From: Clostridiales bacterium
GTDB lineage: Bacteria; Bacillota; Clostridia; Lachnospirales; Lachnospiraceae
Direction of reading: 5' to 3'
Assembly: GCA_012518975.1 (NCBI GenBank)
Contig: JAAYRC010000017.1
Coordinates: 1 to 37,735, forward strand
Length of the DNA stretch: 37,735 nucleotides
Part shown: in pieces, positions 1,044-29,429 of the stretch
Layout: the number at the start of each line of letters is the position of its first letter
Position numbering within the stretch: position 1 is the first letter of the stretch
Position numbers and translations under genes: made by a program
Notes under the pieces: model-generated
Told to the model about the DNA's origin: nothing
Databases searched by the model: none
Seen by the model: only the letters and a program-made list of their open reading frames with translations

Positions 1044-1832
1044 TTAAGATGCAGATGTTGTGTTTTTCACTGAACTAAGTCTTGATGCGGCTTCCTCATC
1101 AAGTATTACTGTAGCTTTTCCTTGATATAACTGAATTGCAGACGCTGTTACAAGATTACTAACAGGGCCCTCTAATGCATTAGCTACTATCTCAGCTTTT
1201 TTTACACCATTTGCTATCATAAGAATTTCTTTTGCTTCAAGAATTGTTCCTATACCCATAGTTATTGCATAATGGGGCATCTCTTCTCTACTAATACCTG
1301 CATTTTTATAAAAAGCCTCATAATTGTCATCTAGGGTCTGTTCACTGAGTCTTTCAATCCTTGTTCTAGAATCTAGGGAAGAACCAGGCTCGTTAAAGGC
1401 CCAATGTCCATCTCCGCCTATGCCCAGTATCTGCAAATCTATTCCACCAGCTTCTTTAATAGCCTCTTCATAAGACTTACAAAGTTCATCAGGATTTTTT
1501 GTTAATCCATCCGGTATATGTATATTCTCATCCTTTATATTTATGTAGTTAAATAACTCTTCATACATAAATCTAGTATAACTTTGATCTTCAGCATATG
1601 ACTTGGATAAATCCATTCCTATTCCAAAGTATTCATCTAGATTAAAAGCAATAATATTAGAAAAATCCAATCCTTCTCTATGCATTCTTATAAGCTCACG
1701 GTAAGTTCCAACTGGTGTGGAACCTGTAGCAAACCCAATAACGCTATTTGGCTTATTCCTTATCTGACCAGCTATTATTTCTGCAGCAAGTTTGCTCATT
1801 TGTTCATAATCTTTTTTTATGATAATCTCCAT
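1044..1832 (-). CDS. nagB: Glucosamine-6-phosphate deaminase
   Basis: Motifs GFATGSTPVGTYREL, FNLDEYFG, LGIGGDGHWAFNEPGSS, SRTRIERL; RBS GGAGGG upstream of ATG. Confidence 0.93.
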   Translation of the reverse strand: MEIIIKKDYEQMSKLAAEIIAGQIRNKPNSVIGFATGSTPVGTYRELIRMHREGLDFSNIIAFNLDEYFGIGMDLSKSYAEDQSYTRFMYEELFNYINIKDENIHIPDGLTKNPDELCKSYEEAIKEAGGIDLQILGIGGDGHWAFNEPGSSLDSRTRIERLSEQTLDDNYEAFYKNAGISREEMPHYAITMGIGTILEAKEILMIANGVKKAEIVANALEGPVSNLVTASAIQLYQGKATVILDEEAASRLSSVKNTTSAS

Positions 1833-2023
1833 GGTTGCCCTCCTTCAAACTCATGAACCACCTAACATTTAGTCTGTTTATAAAAGAGTTACAAAACATT
1901 TTATTCATAAACATTCTTAATGTTACTTATATATATCATGAGTTTTTCTCAGACGTTATATTAACACAAAATGACCTTCTTGTCACTAAAGAATCCTTTC
2001 CAAATGTCACTTTATAGGATTTA

Positions 2024-4147
2024 TCACTTGTAATATGAAGCTACATGATGAAAATTATTAGAAAGCAAGACCTGGTTGTTAACTTTTTTAACTCCGTTTA
2101 CCATACGGCCTACAAAACCCTCTAGCTTTTCCATATACTCCTCTGTAGTAATCTTACCCTCCTCTACATAGGCAAGGCCCTTTTCCCAGCTTGCTGTTAG
2201 CTCAGCATTTAAAAGAGACCTTATTGATGCATTCACCACCTCATATACCAGTTCTCCCAGTAAAGCAGGCGTTACAATCTGAGTTTTCTTATTTAGGCTA
2301 AGATATGATATCTTTACAAGCTTGTTCAATATCTCAGCTCTGGTAGCACTGGTTCCTATACCACTTCCCTTAATCTGTGCACGAAGTTCTTCATCCTCAA
2401 TAAACTGTCCTGCATTTTCCATGGCAAGTATTAAGGTACCGGAGCTATATCTCTTAGGAGGAGAGGTCTCTCCTTCCTTAATAATTAATTCATTAACAGC
2501 TAGCTTCATACCTTTTTTCAAACTTAAAACCGCATCAATAAAACTCTGATCTTTGGTGTCCTTATCCCCTTCATCCTTATCATCATCTTTAGCCAGCTCA
2601 TCTAGACCACTTTCCATTTCTTTGTTATCCTGATTATTATTTTTCTTTTCTTTGCTAGCAGAAGGATTGCCAGCAACCTTAAAGTAACCCTCTTGTTCTA
2701 GGACACGGAAGGTGGAAAAGAATGATTCCTTATCTATCTGAAGAGTAATATTGACCCTACGGTAAATCGCTGGAGGATAGAATATACTAAGAAAACGTCT
2801 TGCTATAGTTTCATATACCCTCCTAGCAGTTACAGATATCCTATCTATGGCCGCAAGTCCCTGACCTGTAGGAATAATGGCATAGTGGTCAGTTATCTTA
2901 CTGTCATTTACATATCTCGTCTTTTCTAACCCCTTATAAGCAGCAGAAGCTAATATCTCACTTGCATAGTCTCTGAACTTTGTATATGCTTGTAGACCAT
3001 CAATGTTTTTTTTGATTTCTTTAGCAACCGCAGAAGATAATACTCTTGCATCTGTTCTAGGATATGTAACAAGTTTTTTCTCATAGAGTTCTTGAGTAAT
3101 CTTTAGGGTTTCATCAGGACTTATCTTGTACATCCTTGCACAGTCATTCTGAAGCTCTGCAAGGTTATATAGTAAAGGAGGATTTTTGTTTTCCTTTTTC
3201 TTTTCTAGCGAAGTAATTTGCCCCATCAAAGGCTCACTGCCTGAAAGTTCCTTCACCCATGAACCATCCTCATTGTAGTTTGGAAGGTCCTTAGCAAGAT
3301 CCTTTATTAACTTTATGGCTGAAGCCCTCTCAAGAAAGCCATTCTCCTTATAAAGAAGAGGAGAATTATAATACTCTGAACCAGAAACCGCCTTAAATTC
3401 CCCTACAAACTCGCCTGTATATCCCTGAGTATCTATAGCAAAGCTTGATAAAACACGGTAAAATGGTGTCTTAACAAAGTTTCTTATTTCTCTTTCCCTT
3501 CTGACAACCATCCCAAGGACACAAGTCATTACCCTTCCTACGGAAATTGCAGACCATTTCTCACTTTTTAAAAAACGTTGGACATCATTACCATATTTTA
3601 GAGTTAATACTCTCGAGAAATTAATTCCCATAAGATAGTCTTCCTTGGCACGAAGGTAAGCTGCATTAGATAAATTATCATAGGCTGACAAAGGCTTGGC
3701 CTCCCTAATACCCCTAAGTATCTCCTCCTCTGTTTGGGAATCTATCCAGACTCTTTTCTTTACCTTTGTATTGGGTACCCTGGCCTCTTGGTCTACCAGC
3801 CTATATATATATTCACCCTCTCTTCCCGAGTCAGTACATACATAAATAGTAGAAACATCTTCACGGTTTAGTAGGCCCCTTACTATCTGAAACTGCTTTT
3901 TAACATTTGGAATAATTTCATATTTAAACTGCTTAGGTAGAAATGGTAGGGGATCCATTCTCCACTTTTTATAAGCCAAATCATAAGCCTCCGGATAGCT
4001 CATAGTAACTAAATGGCCTACACACCAAGTAACAATGTTGTCTCCTGATTCTATAAACCCATCCTGCCTTCTTCCCTTTATATTTAGGGCCTTGGCAAAT
4101 TCCAAGGCAACACTCGGTTTTTCGGTTATATATAAATTAATCGACAT
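2024..4147 (-). CDS. topB: DNA topoisomerase III (type IA)
   Basis: MSINLYITEKPSVALEFAKAL start; SDSGREGEYIYR-type Toprim motif; active-site TYPRTDARVLS; GIGTSATRAEIL. The track's start at 4177 is a TTG; ATG at 4147 fits the family N-terminus better. Confidence 0.92.
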   Translation of the reverse strand: MSINLYITEKPSVALEFAKALNIKGRRQDGFIESGDNIVTWCVGHLVTMSYPEAYDLAYKKWRMDPLPFLPKQFKYEIIPNVKKQFQIVRGLLNREDVSTIYVCTDSGREGEYIYRLVDQEARVPNTKVKKRVWIDSQTEEEILRGIREAKPLSAYDNLSNAAYLRAKEDYLMGINFSRVLTLKYGNDVQRFLKSEKWSAISVGRVMTCVLGMVVRREREIRNFVKTPFYRVLSSFAIDTQGYTGEFVGEFKAVSGSEYYNSPLLYKENGFLERASAIKLIKDLAKDLPNYNEDGSWVKELSGSEPLMGQITSLEKKKENKNPPLLYNLAELQNDCARMYKISPDETLKITQELYEKKLVTYPRTDARVLSSAVAKEIKKNIDGLQAYTKFRDYASEILASAAYKGLEKTRYVNDSKITDHYAIIPTGQGLAAIDRISVTARRVYETIARRFLSIFYPPAIYRRVNITLQIDKESFFSTFRVLEQEGYFKVAGNPSASKEKKNNNQDNKEMESGLDELAKDDDKDEGDKDTKDQSFIDAVLSLKKGMKLAVNELIIKEGETSPPKRYSSGTLILAMENAGQFIEDEELRAQIKGSGIGTSATRAEILNKLVKISYLSLNKKTQIVTPALLGELVYEVVNASIRSLLNAELTASWEKGLAYVEEGKITTEEYMEKLEGFVGRMVNGVKKVNNQVLLSNNFHHVASYYK

Positions 4148-4335
4148 AACTTCCCAACTTTCTAGTTTACACTTCAACCACTAATAGTATAACGTATATT
4201 CCTTCCTACGACAAATCATAATTTACCTATCTACTGTAGAATATTATCATAATTTTTATTGAATATTAACAATATATCGTATACAATAAATCTAGTAATG
4301 AAAACTATGACACAAGGTAATTATAGGAGGATTTT

Positions 4336-5223
4336 ATGAGGCCTTATCAACTGTTTAGTGATTCTTCATGCGATTTACCAGAGAAGCTTCTACAGGAACA
4401 TCAAATAAAGCTTATACCCTTTTATGTTAGCTTTGATCAGGAAACTTATTATAAGGAAAATCTAGATATAACAAATGAGGTGTTTTACCAAACACTGACT
4501 GCAAAAAAAGTATATGCAAGGACCTCACTGCCTTCTGTTCAAGACTATATCTCTATGTTTAAAGAAGCTCTTAATGAGGGTCATGATATTATATGTCTAT
4601 GCCTAACTCAAAAATTTAGTGGTTCTTATCAAGCCGCCTTAAACGCAAAGCATATACTAGAGGAACAGTATCATGATTCAACTATATCAGTAATTGATAG
4701 TATACAAGCTACAGGAGGCCAAGGACTTTTGCTTTTACAGCTTGCCGCTATGAAGGAAGCTGGATTTACCATAGAAGAAGTAGGCCAGAAAATAGATATA
4801 TTGAAAGCAACAGGCCGAATTATGTTCACATTAAACACATTAGAATATCTTAGCAAGGGAAGAAGAATTGGTAAAGTTGTCTCCTTGGCAAAGGACATGT
4901 TGGATTTAAAGCCACTTATTCAGTTAAAAGATGCTGAACTTATTCCATATTCTAATATTCGTGGAAGAAAAAAATCCCTAGATAGGGTATTTGAAATGGT
5001 AACTGAATTTTTTAATGACACAGGTGATAGTCCATCTGATTATGAATTCTGTATAGCTAACGCCACAACTATAGAGGATGCAGGGTATTTAGAAAGAAAG
5101 CTTGAAAAATTTTTAGGCAGAAAACTTAAGTATCCTGTATTTCAAATCGGCATAACCATTGGTAGTTATACAGGACCTGGAGCTATAGGAATATGCTTAG
5201 TAAAAAGGTATGATAGGATATAA
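4336..5223 (+). CDS. DegV family fatty-acid-binding-like protein
   Basis: SDSSCDLPEKLLQEHQIKLIPFYVSF, RTSLPSV, LCLTQKFSGSYQAA; RBS TAGGAGG before ATG. Confidence 0.92.
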   Translation: MRPYQLFSDSSCDLPEKLLQEHQIKLIPFYVSFDQETYYKENLDITNEVFYQTLTAKKVYARTSLPSVQDYISMFKEALNEGHDIICLCLTQKFSGSYQAALNAKHILEEQYHDSTISVIDSIQATGGQGLLLLQLAAMKEAGFTIEEVGQKIDILKATGRIMFTLNTLEYLSKGRRIGKVVSLAKDMLDLKPLIQLKDAELIPYSNIRGRKKSLDRVFEMVTEFFNDTGDSPSDYEFCIANATTIEDAGYLERKLEKFLGRKLKYPVFQIGITIGSYTGPGAIGICLVKRYDRI

Positions 5224-5280
5224 TATATAATATGATGATACAAATACCTATATAACATTTCATAAGAAAGGAAGATAATT

Positions 5281-5442
5281 ATGTCAAAGAGAGATTATTG
5301 TGAAGCAAATGCAGCTGGCACTCCCTCAATTAGTGTTTCAGTGGATGTAACCAAAATTGTTAAATACCTATGTATTGCCGGAATAGTAATTGTAGGTATT
5401 ATATTCGGCACTAAATACTATCAGAAAATGATTGAAGATTAA
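5281..5442 (+). CDS. Small (53 aa) single-TM membrane protein of unknown function
   Basis: ATG at 5281 preceded by AAGAAAGGAAG; translation MSKRDYCEANAAGTPSISVSVDVTKIVKYLCIAGIVIVGIIFGTKYYQKMIED*. Below the ORF-track length cutoff. Confidence 0.72.
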   Translation: MSKRDYCEANAAGTPSISVSVDVTKIVKYLCIAGIVIVGIIFGTKYYQKMIED

Positions 5443-5469
5443 TATTGACAAGATAATGATACTAAATTT

Positions 5470-5500
5470 TATGTAATTGGGCGGGCTTTCCTATTACATA
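5470..5500 (+). other. Perfect 8-bp stem-loop (TATGTAAT-N15-ATTACATA) just upstream of the terminator
   Basis: Inverted repeat read directly from sequence. Confidence 0.55.
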
Positions 5501-5504
5501 GAAT

Positions 5505-5553
5505 GGGACTACATATCCAATAAATTGCTTGGATTATATAGTCCCTTTTTTTG
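5505..5553 (+). terminator. Rho-independent terminator of the degV/small-ORF unit
   Basis: GGGACTACATATCCAA...TTGGATTATATAGTCCC followed by TTTTTTTG. Confidence 0.85.
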
Positions 5554-5583
5554 CTTTATTTTCTATTATAATCTATAAACTGT

Positions 5584-6825
5584 TTACTTATAAAGAGGAT
5601 ACTTATCAGTAAGCTCCTTAACCATATCCATAGCCTTTTCCTTATTTGCATCCACATCATTAATAAGAAGATAAATCGCTTCAGCTATTACGTCCATATC
5701 CTCCGTATTAAATCCTCTAGTGGTAACTGCTGCTGTTCCTAGACGGATTCCACTAGTTACGAAAGGAGATGCAGGATCATTAGGAACTGTATTCTTATTA
5801 CATGTTATATTGGCAGCCTCCAATATTTTTTCTGCATCCTTACCTGTTACACCCTTATTCTGAAGGTCTACCAGCATAAGGTGATTATCTGTACCACCTG
5901 ATACAAGATTAAAGCCCCTCTTTACTAAGCCTTCTGCTAGAGCCTGTGCATTATCTATAACCCTCTTAGCATAATCCTTAAAACTTGGGTCTAATGCCTC
6001 CTTAAAGGAAACAGCCTTAGCAGCAATAACGTGCATTAATGGTCCTCCCTGAATACCAGGGAATACAGACTTATTAAGCTTATATTCATTGGCAAACTCT
6101 TGGCTAGATAGGATCATTCCGCCTCTTGGTCCGCGTAAGGTTTTATGTGTTGTGGTAGTGGTTACATGAGCATAAGGTATCGGACTTTCATGATAGCCTG
6201 CAGCCACAAGACCTGCAATATGAGCCATATCAACCATAAGTAATGCGCCTACTTCATCAGCTATCTCTCTAAATCTCTTAAAATCGATTTTTCTTGCATA
6301 AGCACTAGCACCAGCAACAATTAACTTAGGCTTGCTCTCGATTGCAATCCTTCTAAGCTCATCATAATCTATATAGCCACTATCATCGACTCCATAAGGA
6401 ATAATCTTAAAATAACTTCCACTTATATTTACCGGACTTCCATGGGTCAAATGTCCACCATGATCCAGGTTCATTCCCATAACAGTATCTCCGGGCTTAA
6501 GTAAAGCAAAAAACACAGCCATGTTAGCCTGAGCTCCAGAATGAGGTTGAACATTAGCATAGGTACATGAGAAAAGCTTCTTTGCTCGGTCAATAGCTAG
6601 GCTCTCCGCTATATCTACAAATTCACATCCACCATAATATCTTTTTCCAGGGTATCCTTCAGCATACTTATTAGTTAACTGACTACCCATAGCTGCCATA
6701 ACCGCCTTACTTACAAAGTTCTCTGAGGCAATAAGCTCAATATGGTCGCTTTGCCTAACTATCTCTTGGGATATAGCATCAGCTATTTCAGGATCAAAGT
6801 TTTTAACTTCATCAAATGTGTACAT
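5584..6825 (-). CDS. glyA: Serine hydroxymethyltransferase
   Basis: [53 protein letters not shown]. Likely start is ATG at 6825 (GAAAGGAATTGAAAGA-ATG), not the track's 6885. Confidence 0.95.
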
Positions 6826-24462: not shown

Positions 24463-26286
24463 ATGGAAATTAATGAATATTCAAAACAACATAGATTACA
24501 TAGGGCGGCCTCCGAATATGAAGCTAGCCAAGCTAAAGCACAGCATATAAAGCCATCCTCACAGGAGCAAAACACTTCTAGTCAAATGGGGAAAAATGCC
24601 CATGCCACCATAAAAGGAGAAATTATAGACCTCAGGTATCAAGAAGTTAAAATAAGGCTAGAGCCAAGTGGCCAGGTAATCACTGCAAGGTTAACAGCTG
24701 ATGTTCCCCTTCATATTGGTCAAATAGCTGAATTTGCTCTAGATGACGAAAAGGACGGTCAAATTACCTTACGATATATATCAACAAATAAGTCTCCTAT
24801 AAACGACATAGCTTACAAAGCCCTATATGCCTCAGGACTAGCTGCCTCTGAAAGAAATCTAGCCATAGTGGAGGAGCTTCTATCTAATCAAATGCCTGTA
24901 GACAAAAATACGATCCTTCAGTTAATAAAGCTATCTGCCACCTATCCAGAAGCTAGCCTAACAGGCCTTGTTTTAATGCATAAAAATCACCTGCCCATTA
25001 ACTCAAGTAGTATAGGGCAGTTTGAGCTCTATCAAAAGGGATTGCATGAGATCCTGTCACAGCTTAAAACCCTCATAGATAATATAGGCTCCTTTTTTGA
25101 AACTGAAAACAAAGATAATCTTATAGAAAAAGATACCCTGGTCAATTTGACAGATAATCTTAATCCTGAAACTCAGAAAAAGGCAGATAAAAATGTTTTA
25201 GAAGATGGCATAATAAATGAGATTAATAAAAGGATTCCTGAGGATATGCCAATGACAAGAAATGTTATTGAAGTCGAATATATAGATAATGACCTACATT
25301 TTTTTAAGAATTTGCTTAATATGCTTCTTGATGGAAACAACTTGAAACACCAATTAAAACCTGACACTAGCCTAGGCCATATCTTAAGCAAGAATGAACT
25401 TATGAAGTTGCAGGAACTTATTTTTAAAGACTTAAATGAGGATACATATTCCAATAAGGATATAATGGGTATCAAAGACCAACTTGCGGACGGTACCTTG
25501 ACCTTTCAGTCCTTTTTTCCTCTTGTAGAGGAAATATATTACAATCTCCCTCCTAGACAAAGCCAAGAAAACAATGTCCTACTTACCCGTATCCTACAGG
25601 CCTATGTTGGCATGTCCGAAAATATGCCTGACCCTGATAAGCAAAAACTTGCTTATCTTTTAAAATCAGATTCTGTGAGGGACATAATAAGCCAGGCACT
25701 CCATCATAGATGGACCCTAAGCCCAAGGGACCTTACTAAGGATAATAAGGTTAAGGAATTCTATAAGAGGCTTGATGAAGATTTGGATTATATAAAAGAA
25801 CTTACAAGTAGTAGCAAACTAGCTGATACACAAAACATACAATCATCAATAAATAAACTGCAGGATAACCTACAGTTTATGAGGGATCTTAATAATTTAT
25901 TCTCATATATCCAGCTACCTATACGTCTTTCAAACCAAGACGTCCATGGAGACTTATATGTCTTTACTCGAAAAAACAAAAAGCATATTGATACAGGACA
26001 GCTAAATATTTTACTACATTTAGATATGAAAAGTCTTGGTCCTATGGATATTCACCTGTCTATGAAAAACAAGCAGTTCTATGCTGTTTTTTACCTGGAG
26101 AAGTCATCTGAAAAAGTAATCAGTCAATATTTACATGAACTTATTGACTCCCTCCAAAGGAAAGGCTACCAGTTTCAAGCAAGTACCAAGATATCAGATA
26201 CTAAGCCTGACTTTATAACAGATATTTTACAAGACGATACACCTAATCCAGGCTCTCATAGGTATTCATTTGACATAAGAGCATAG
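24463..26286 (+). CDS. Flagellar hook-length control protein FliK-like
   Basis: 607 aa. N-terminal beta region (ATIKGEIIDLRYQEVKIRLEPSGQVITARLTADVPLHIGQIAEF), low-complexity middle, C-terminal Flg_hook-like domain (GQLNILLHLDMKSLGPMDIHLSMKNKQFYAVFYLE...). Confidence 0.6.
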   Translation: MEINEYSKQHRLHRAASEYEASQAKAQHIKPSSQEQNTSSQMGKNAHATIKGEIIDLRYQEVKIRLEPSGQVITARLTADVPLHIGQIAEFALDDEKDGQITLRYISTNKSPINDIAYKALYASGLAASERNLAIVEELLSNQMPVDKNTILQLIKLSATYPEASLTGLVLMHKNHLPINSSSIGQFELYQKGLHEILSQLKTLIDNIGSFFETENKDNLIEKDTLVNLTDNLNPETQKKADKNVLEDGIINEINKRIPEDMPMTRNVIEVEYIDNDLHFFKNLLNMLLDGNNLKHQLKPDTSLGHILSKNELMKLQELIFKDLNEDTYSNKDIMGIKDQLADGTLTFQSFFPLVEEIYYNLPPRQSQENNVLLTRILQAYVGMSENMPDPDKQKLAYLLKSDSVRDIISQALHHRWTLSPRDLTKDNKVKEFYKRLDEDLDYIKELTSSSKLADTQNIQSSINKLQDNLQFMRDLNNLFSYIQLPIRLSNQDVHGDLYVFTRKNKKHIDTGQLNILLHLDMKSLGPMDIHLSMKNKQFYAVFYLEKSSEKVISQYLHELIDSLQRKGYQFQASTKISDTKPDFITDILQDDTPNPGSHRYSFDIRA

Positions 26287-26298
26287 AGGATAAAGCCG

Positions 26299-27101
26299 CT
26301 AATTACAAAGTGTTTTAGGTCGTTTATAAGGGTTTATCTGCTCTAAAGCATATGCAGCTCGTATTATGCCTTCTTCTCCAAATCTTTTACCTACAAGCTG
26401 TATACCAATAGGTAACCCTTTTTTATCCCTTCCACAAGGTATGGTTACACCAGGTCCTCCAGCCAGATTAACTGAAGCATTAAGTATTTCAGAACGGTGC
26501 TTTTCATCATCGACCTTATTATCACTTAAAAGAGGAGCTGTTTTTAATGATTCAGGACTCATAAGAATGTCATACCTATTAAATGCTTCCTGGTATGCAT
26601 TGTAGATTACTCTACGTATTCTTCTCGCTTTGTTATAATAAATCTCATAATTGTCTGAGCTTATTACGTAGGCTCCTAGCATAATTCTACGCTTTAGCTC
26701 ATAACCAAAATCTTGTCCTTTTGAATTCTTAAATATTTCTTCTAGGTCATGATATTCACTTTTTATGTGGCTAGGTCTTACTCCCTTATACTTAGAAAAT
26801 ATCCAACTAGCCTCAGCACATGCAATCACATAATATATCTGCGCGCTATATTCTATCCCTTCTAGTTCAAACACCTCCACCTTGGCTCCCATATCCTCTA
26901 AGGCCTTTACCTGACTTAGAAAGCACTCTCGTATATCTTTATCCAAATCCTCTTCAAGATAGAGCTTTGGAACACCTATTCTCATCCCCTTCACATCATC
27001 TACTAGGGCCTGGCTATAGGAATATTTTTTCTTCCTAATGGAAGTAAAGTCCCTTGAGTCATATCCGCAATATAGAAAAGAGTATCTTTATCAATCTTCA
27101 T
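26299..27101 (-). pseudogene. gatC'-'gatA remnant: GatC N-terminus joined out of frame to the C-terminal half of GatA
   Basis: From ATG 27101 the frame reads MKIDKDTLFYIAD (GatC-like N-terminus), then stops at TAG. Overlapping frame reads GYDSRDFTSIRKKKYSYSQALVDDVKGMRIGVPKLYLEEDLDKDI...GGPGVTIPCGRDKKGLPIGIQLVGKRF (GatA C-terminal half). The Ser-cisSer-Lys half is absent. Confidence 0.8.
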
Positions 27102-27194: not shown

Positions 27195-29429
27195 TTATTT
27201 AAAATCCTCAGGATAATTTGGAAATACATGGCGGTAGTAATCATTTTTTATAACACTTTTGGATACAGTGAATTTATTCTTTATTATAGAATTAATATTT
27301 GTTATATAATCATCTGAAACCTCATCATCTGTCAGATTTATAACCTCACCTGTGTTCGAGTTAAACATGACCTTATCTGTAATAAAGCTCCGGTTATTAA
27401 GTATAACCAAGGGATAAGAATCAGATAAAATATCCTTTCCCATCAAAAGTCTAGAATCATATTTAAGACCGAATAGATTACTTAATGTTGGAAGAATATC
27501 TAGACTTGAGGCTGGCTTATCTATAATAATATTCTCTTCCATTTCAGGATTCCATAAGATAAAATGGTTACGATATATTTCAAAGTAGGGGTCCACTTCA
27601 TGACCCACAAGTTCATCTATTTTTTCTTTTTCCCATCCGTAGGGATAATGGTCAGCACTAATAGCAATAACAGTCTTATCTATTATCCCTGCCTCAGTTA
27701 ATCTCCTAATGAGTTCCTCCATGGCACGGTCAAACTCAATCTGGCAAGCTATATAGGCCCTTGCATCAGATGAATAAGGAAGTTCTTTTACCAAGTCTTT
27801 ATTTTTAAAGGACATACTGTTACCAACAAAGCTGTAATTCATATGGCCACTTACTGTAAGATAATATATATGGAACTGGTCTTCATTAATAAATTCATCA
27901 ACCGTATTCTGCATCATTTCTAAGTCTGAACCAGGCCATACATCTGAATCAAGCACCAGACCATTTCCTTTTGCCTTAAACCTATAACCTAGGTTTGGAT
28001 GAGTTTCATGTCTCTCATAATAAGTATGGGAATGGTTATGATATGCCTTACTTTCAATCCCTAAAAGATTAAACTGATTTCCCAAGGCAAAGGGCATCAG
28101 ATTGTTTCTTGAATGATACATACTCCTTGAACCCACTGGTATCATACCAGTCATAGCTACATATTCTCCATCACTGGTACTTGTCTGCCAAAGAGCAGTA
28201 TAGAAATTATTAAATACAAAGCCTTCTTTGGTCATTTTATATAGGGTAGGAGTCAGTTCCTCATGTACTGCATATGGAGAAAACCCCTCTGCTGTTATCA
28301 TGATAAGATTATAACCCTCAAACATCCCTGTATATTCATTCTTATTTGTTGGGACAATTGTAGCGAAATAATTATGAAGTGATCTTATTTGGTCATTTTC
28401 TTCATTCTCTGCAAGCACTTCAAAATCTATATCCATTATATTAGGCGAAGTATCTATTGGTATTTGAGTAGGAAGGGCAGGTACTGTTGGCTGTAACTCT
28501 TCCTTTACTTGTTCTTGCCCTTCTGTTAAGGGTCCAGCAGTCGGTCTTGGGGGTATGGTTGGACTATGAATTATCTCATCTGTATTAAATACATCTTCAT
28601 TTGAAACATGCTGGGTTTCAATTATAATTAAATCATCATCTTTTAAGATACCTGTTAAATCAAACCTAGTAAGGGTAATGACTCCTAGCTGCTTTGCACT
28701 TAGGTCAGGAACCTTGCTATGATGATAAAGTTCATAAGGACTATAGTCTTGTTTGCCGTAAATTGGTAACAAAAGTAATGCAATTATATGTAGGCCCACA
28801 GCTCCTATAAGTAGAAAACCTTGGTCCTTAAGTTTTCTCTTCTCGCATGAAAAGACTTTTTTGATTAAAAAACATAAGATAAGCAATGGAAGAAATGACA
28901 AGATAATTGAAGGTATATTTGTACGAATAGCATTATAAACTTCCCTTCCAAACTCCGATACTGCATCATCTGCCATTCCGAAAGAACTTAATGACAAATA
29001 TACCTTAAAGATACTATAATAGACTATTTGTAAACCAAATATAAAGCATGTGACTATTGTTAATAGCCACATGATAAGTGTATTAATGTATTTACTAAAA
29101 AAACCTGTTAATATTGCAAATATTATGCCTACAGGCATAGCAAAAAAAATAGGATATATTATTTTTCCATCTATGGATTTATATATAAACAAATGAGCTA
29201 CTAATTCCAAATAGATCAATGTTCCAACAAAAAATAAGCAAGGAAATAATAAGGTGCTAATATTATTTTTCTTATGGGAAGTACTATCATCATTTGTGGA
29301 TTCATTGATCTTATTTGTCTCTTTATCAATTTCTTCTGTTTGTATATTATCCGCTTCTGTTTGTATATTATTCGCTTCTGGTTGCAAATTATCCGTTTCT
29401 GTTTGCAATTTATCCGCTTGTGTTTTCAT
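27195..29429 (-). CDS. LTA synthase family / sulfatase-fold phosphoglycerol transferase
   Basis: Several TM segments, then MITAEGFSPYAVHEELTPTLYKM, ALWQTSTSDGEYVAMTGMIP, AISADHYPYGWEKEKID, SSLDILPTLSNLFGL. Confidence 0.88.
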   Translation of the reverse strand: MKTQADKLQTETDNLQPEANNIQTEADNIQTEEIDKETNKINESTNDDSTSHKKNNISTLLFPCLFFVGTLIYLELVAHLFIYKSIDGKIIYPIFFAMPVGIIFAILTGFFSKYINTLIMWLLTIVTCFIFGLQIVYYSIFKVYLSLSSFGMADDAVSEFGREVYNAIRTNIPSIILSFLPLLILCFLIKKVFSCEKRKLKDQGFLLIGAVGLHIIALLLLPIYGKQDYSPYELYHHSKVPDLSAKQLGVITLTRFDLTGILKDDDLIIIETQHVSNEDVFNTDEIIHSPTIPPRPTAGPLTEGQEQVKEELQPTVPALPTQIPIDTSPNIMDIDFEVLAENEENDQIRSLHNYFATIVPTNKNEYTGMFEGYNLIMITAEGFSPYAVHEELTPTLYKMTKEGFVFNNFYTALWQTSTSDGEYVAMTGMIPVGSRSMYHSRNNLMPFALGNQFNLLGIESKAYHNHSHTYYERHETHPNLGYRFKAKGNGLVLDSDVWPGSDLEMMQNTVDEFINEDQFHIYYLTVSGHMNYSFVGNSMSFKNKDLVKELPYSSDARAYIACQIEFDRAMEELIRRLTEAGIIDKTVIAISADHYPYGWEKEKIDELVGHEVDPYFEIYRNHFILWNPEMEENIIIDKPASSLDILPTLSNLFGLKYDSRLLMGKDILSDSYPLVILNNRSFITDKVMFNSNTGEVINLTDDEVSDDYITNINSIIKNKFTVSKSVIKNDYYRHVFPNYPEDFK
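29347..29429. repeat. Four 20-21-bp tandem repeats encoding heptads at the LtaS-like N-terminus
   Basis: Units ttatccgcttctgtttgtata / ttattcgcttctggttgcaaa / ttatccgtttctgtttgcaat / ttatccgcttgtgttttcat; protein ADKLQTE-TDNLQPE-ANNIQTE-ADNIQTE. A degenerate fifth unit lies at 29326-29346. Confidence 0.85.

Follow-up and report, generated by a model that had tools for sequence, protein, structure and literature searches.

GatCAB is essential in many bacteria and has been described with GatA as the source of ammonia and a tunnel leading from it to GatB. How, then, does a bacterium manage when its gatCAB locus holds only the start of gatC and the end of gatA? The question is raised by positions 26299–27101 of the window, by which we mean the whole 37,735-nt stretch analysed here, the entire contig C189 of genome G000 (2.1 Mb, 267 contigs, 78% complete). 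A sequence-only reading had seen in this place a gatC′–′gatA deletion remnant that lacks the half of GatA carrying the Ser-cisSer-Lys triad, with no gatB and with a convergent FliK-like gene next to it. Translation, matches to the Pfam Amidase family (PF01425) and synteny bear out the remnant, and the neighbour is indeed a Flg_hook protein gene.

On the minus strand, the first 14 codons of gatC join, out of frame, the last ∼255 codons of gatA (27101–26299). The gatC remnant (27060–27101; the start codon and 13 further codons, delimited by reading and by comparison with gatC of ten relatives) is opened by an ATG at 27101 (MKIDKDTLFYIAD) and meets gatA at the junction GGATATG (27066–27060). Because gatA continues in a different frame past GGATATG, the peptide initiated in gatC (MKIDKDTLFYIADMTQG...) ends after 32 codons, and a second frame (GYDSRDFTSI...DDVKGMRIGVPK...) is open to the stop at 26299. 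The gatA 3′ remnant (26299–27066, minus strand), placed by PF01425 matches, alignment and conserved-site decay, corresponds to a 484-aa GatA from approximately residue 234 onwards. It matches PF01425 over profile positions 235–443 of 445 (E = 5.8e-40), and its longer open frame over positions 202–443 (E = 5.3e-43); together with synteny, these values rule out chance similarity. Everything before residue ∼234 has been deleted and, in alignment, Lys81, Ser160 and Ser180 (G007 numbering) are all absent, leaving the remnant without the Lys-cisSer-Ser triad of a functional amidase. Two Pfam-identified neighbours served as syntenic markers: the FliK-like gene (24463–26286, plus strand) and, upstream, a sulfatase-superfamily (LTA-synthase-like) gene (27195–29429, minus strand). 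With none of gatC, gatA and gatB intact between them, the locus does not hold a functional GatCAB operon.

The comparison with close relatives that the sequence-only reading had proposed was informative about how the remnant arose. Ten same-genus relatives carry, at the same place, gatC, gatA and gatB in the order sulfatase – gatC – gatA – gatB – convergent fliK, mostly followed by pflD and pflA; Pfam confirmed the neighbour identities, and in one of the ten, G007, the genome is a single contig. Since this gene order is conserved in the relatives and only a remnant stands in the window, the deletion is confirmed. The heptamer GGATATG of the scar occurs in both gatC (GCGGATATGGTC) and gatA (TCTGGATATGACC) of relative G044, an arrangement consistent with loss of the DNA between two short direct repeats, and comparison with the relatives indicates that ∼0.95 kb was removed. 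A single deletion, as originally supposed, is ruled out as the whole explanation. The gatA 3′ end is complete in the window, and the gap from the gatA stop to the fliK stop (26287–26298) is 12 bp, with gatB wholly absent, whereas G007 has ∼1.5 kb and G001 ∼1.9 kb between the two stops, gatB included. The loss of gatB therefore requires a second, separate event. By this comparison, one deletion at the GGATATG repeats removed the catalytic half of gatA together with the 3′ part of gatC, and another took gatB. The window locus is almost certainly a non-functional remnant of the native gatCAB operon of the genus.

Might the C-terminal fragment nevertheless persist as a stand-alone protein, as had also been considered? 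A 231-codon open frame is left from a GTG at 26994, and reinitiation there is possible, as the 32-codon peptide stops near that GTG and gatC keeps both its start codon and the AAAGGGG ahead of it. Conservation, together with the missing catalytic residues, argues against a useful product. The remnant is changed at 8 of the 44 columns at which 25 functional GatAs of the genus all agree, whereas each of those 25 differs at 0–4 such columns when left out in turn. Most of the changes fall in the conserved SxNLSRYDG segment, and they include Arg, Asp and Gly positions of that segment that are retained in all of the short pseudo-GatAs described below. The simplest reading of these changes is relaxed constraint on what would be a pseudogene remnant, and a fragment that is still translated and useful appears highly improbable.

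Of the other fates offered by the sequence-only reading, possession of another gatCAB was the one that the genome search revealed. The only gatB detected in G000, plus another gatA, was found on contig C231, in the order aspS2 (1497–3326), gatC (3340–3615), a gatA-like gene that we call pseudo-gatA (3628–4737) and gatB (4725–6164). Its GatA is without catalytic residues: the catalytic Lys of AIKDN is replaced by Glu (ALEDS) in this 369-aa protein, which also lacks the GGSSGGS loop and the Ser of GSIRQ. Like its 11 pseudo-GatA relatives, it thus lacks the Lys-cisSer-Ser triad of a functional GatA. It matches PF01425, and TIGR00132 is the best NCBIfam match of the pseudo-GatAs, at 208.6–255.6 bits and so under the curated cut-off of 481.1. 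As for its partners, GatB has the GatB_N and YqeY domains and the active-site Glu/His, GatC is above the TIGR00135 cut-off (72.2 versus 47.1 bits), and the AspRS is of the bacterial type, above the TIGR00459 cut-off (639.1 versus 373.85 bits). AspRS2 has RDHGG, typical of non-discriminating AspRS, where E. coli has RDLGS; tRNAAsn is suggested to be a further substrate. Direct charging of tRNA-Gln/Asn, another option raised earlier, held for one half only: asnS is present (contig C8), but glnS was not detected in the 78% complete assembly. Neither the loss of catalytic residues in the replacement GatA nor the occurrence of at least two deletions at the native locus had been foreseen.

The C231 cassette has its affinities outside the genus. 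Its aspS2 shares ∼80% identity with the G051 and G202 copies, and 41% with the native AspRS on contig C36. In a GatB tree, the operons with pseudo-GatA form one clade (support 1.0), and G000 is nested among Oscillospiraceae-side operons, two of which come from named termite-gut metagenome genomes. The surroundings of the cassette are those of the host: a solute-binding-protein gene on C231 is 77–82% identical to same-genus orthologues, and the two genes that bracket the cassette, an AAA gene in front (86%) and a MATE gene behind (78%), sit in one region of G001. The tetranucleotide profile of C231 (r = 0.982) lies inside the range of G000's own contigs, evidence that is partly circular by itself because bins are built with composition, and its GC content is 0.36, compared with ∼0.5 in the donors' contigs. 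Flanks and composition rule out C231 as an Oscillospiraceae contaminant. These comparisons show aspS2-gatC-gatA-gatB to be, as judged from sequence, horizontally acquired, with Oscillospiraceae affinity and inserted among native genes. No relative was found in the viral collection searched. The assembly of G000 is fragmented and of the metagenome type, and an assembly or binning artefact could have produced a misassembled scar or placed the C231 of another organism in the bin. However, an assembler would not be misled by a repeat of 7 bp, and point decay is seen in the remnant as well, while the same-genus orthologues adjoining the cassette (77–86%) and the GC difference speak against a binning error. 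We give such an artefact very little credence.

A short GatA adjoining gatB was found in eleven further genomes besides G000. When 299 genomes of G051's family were searched, nine more turned up in addition to G051's own, and among 34 same-genus genomes searched the short pseudo form was present in G000 only. The loci read have the common order aspS – gatC – short gatA – gatB, with a contig end cutting off everything before gatA in G088. In all 12 pseudo-GatAs the Lys is replaced by Asp or Glu and the GGSSGGS Ser-cisSer loop is absent; a Ser at the nucleophile position is kept in three (G185, G220 and G316). The accompanying GatB keeps its active-site Glu/His in 12 of 12 genomes. For the three closest pairs, dN/dS of pseudo-gatA was 0.085 (G172/G249), 0.19 (G220/G316) and 0.07 (G052/G313); two of these pairs have a dS that is high or nearly saturated, with G052/G313 near saturation. 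Constraint on gatB was tighter, at 0.015–0.04 where measurable. Pseudo-gatA appears clearly to be under purifying selection. A decaying pseudogene is ruled out by these ratios and the 12 open frames. Structure prediction of pseudo-GatA from two sequences gave a pLDDT of 36.5 and was not used as evidence. G052 and G313 each have an in-frame aspS–gatC fusion ahead of pseudo-gatA (L133:2666-4147 and L134:2-1489), and in G050 an asparaginase gene (PF00710; L093:2403-3449) lies directly upstream of aspS-gatC-pseudo-gatA-gatB.

Within the host genus, gatCAB seems to have been replaced repeatedly. The native locus of G019 (L073:7961-9705) has a full-length, well-conserved gatA but lacks gatB, and its gatC is shortened to 69 aa. 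A separate foreign aspS-gatA-gatB cluster (L074) of this genome encodes a GatA that keeps the triad; the orphan GatA of the native locus might work in trans, or it may recently have become redundant. Related foreign clusters occur in G004 and G047, the former (L075:6343-13307) with a foreign gatA-gatB pair flanked by two different aspS genes. As a separate observation, gatB of genome G041 (L089:5580-6942) appears split into two overlapping frames, a possible frameshift.

The deletions in the window would represent the loss of a redundant native enzyme, presumably tolerated because G000 carries aspS2-gatC-gatA-gatB on C231, and the imported operon very probably replaced the native one. GatA releases ammonia from glutamine for use by GatB, and such enzymes also accept NH4Cl in vitro (PMC4027206; PMC8406222). 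In the mechanism that we propose, pseudo-GatA would act as a scaffold in the C231 complex, and GatB would amidate Glu-tRNAGln as well as the Asp-tRNAAsn made by AspRS2, with ammonia coming free from the surroundings, or from another enzyme in some hosts, instead of from GatA. That the C231 GatCAB functions in an ammonia-dependent manner is predicted from the loss of glutaminase residues and the retention of those of GatB, and we put its chances at slightly better than even. More tentatively, and as a claim somewhat more apt to fail than to hold, we suggest a GatCAB lineage permanently without a glutaminase of its own, in which pseudo-GatA would hold the complex together, GatB would use free ammonia, and the operon would be the sole route to Gln-tRNAGln in G000. 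As an overall account, the combination of a native gatCAB remnant, an imported C231 operon replacing it and an ammonia-dependent GatCAB is the best explanation, and probably the correct one.

An alternative account is that the unrecovered ∼22% of the genome encodes a GlnRS or an intact, catalytic GatCAB; the scar would then be a lost extra copy and the C231 operon would serve tRNAAsn only. With an assembly that is only 78% complete and in 267 contigs, an intact gatA or a glnS could have been missed. Moreover, five of the 12 pseudo-GatA genomes (G051, G052, G088, G172 and G220) have one or more full-length GatAs as well, and in those genomes the pseudo form could be an additional device for tRNAAsn only. 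Yet the native locus itself was recovered, and it is dead. The closest relatives (e.g. G001, G005, G007, G013 and G014) each have a single gatB and no detected glnS. In G050, the other of the two pseudo-GatA genomes in which glnS was sought, likewise the pseudo form alone was found and no glnS was detected. Full-length GatA was not detected in 7 of the 12, namely G000 and six Oscillospiraceae-side genomes, G050 among them, with assemblies of unstated completeness. We consider the unrecovered enzyme unlikely, though it deserves serious weight. The imported operon could also be fed by a different, unlinked glutaminase or asparaginase, in a GatD-like division of labour, and not by free ammonium. 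Archaeal GatDE uses an asparaginase-like subunit, and the asparaginase gene next to the G050 operon would suit such an arrangement. No asparaginase gene stands beside the operon in G000 or G051, however, and we regard this source as improbable.

If replacement by an ammonia-dependent GatCAB is correct, a GatCAB that is conserved and horizontally mobile although its glutaminase is dead would mean that ammonia channelling is dispensable in nature. Such a glutaminase-free version of an essential translation enzyme would lend itself readily to testing how translation is reshaped in ammonia-rich habitats, and 'gatA present' in a genome annotation would not equate to glutamine-dependent amidation. 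Neither a catalytically dead GatA in GatCAB nor a switch from glutamine to ammonia in this enzyme was found described in the literature searched, which lay mostly outside subscription papers, so the missing description is weak evidence of novelty.

Compared with the native GatCAB of the genus, the window has the same locus and neighbours, and its gatA remnant is up to 65% identical to the GatA of relatives, but gatC is truncated, gatB is missing altogether and gatA has lost its catalytic half. For most of the core, the C231 GatA can be aligned with canonical GatA (TIGR00132; PDB 3h0l, 2df4), and its gene is flanked by gatC and gatB; the protein differs in its Lys-to-Glu change, the lack of the Ser-cisSer loop, a length shorter by ∼115 residues and a score of 219.5 bits against the cut-off of 481.1. 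The aspS–gatC fusions of G052 and G313 resemble the AspRS–GatC fusion of NCBIfam PRK12820, although they precede pseudo-gatA and the partial sequence falls far under the PRK12820 cut-off. In Deinococcus and Thermus, a second AspRS works with GatCAB in tRNA-dependent asparagine synthesis (PMC4206432); the C231 operon likewise pairs a second AspRS with GatCAB, but its AspRS is of the bacterial type and its GatA is a pseudoenzyme. Finally, the proposed change of donor from glutamine to ammonia is akin to the division between ammonia- and glutamine-dependent amide synthetases, as in AsnA and AsnB and in the NAD synthetases (PMC3376133).
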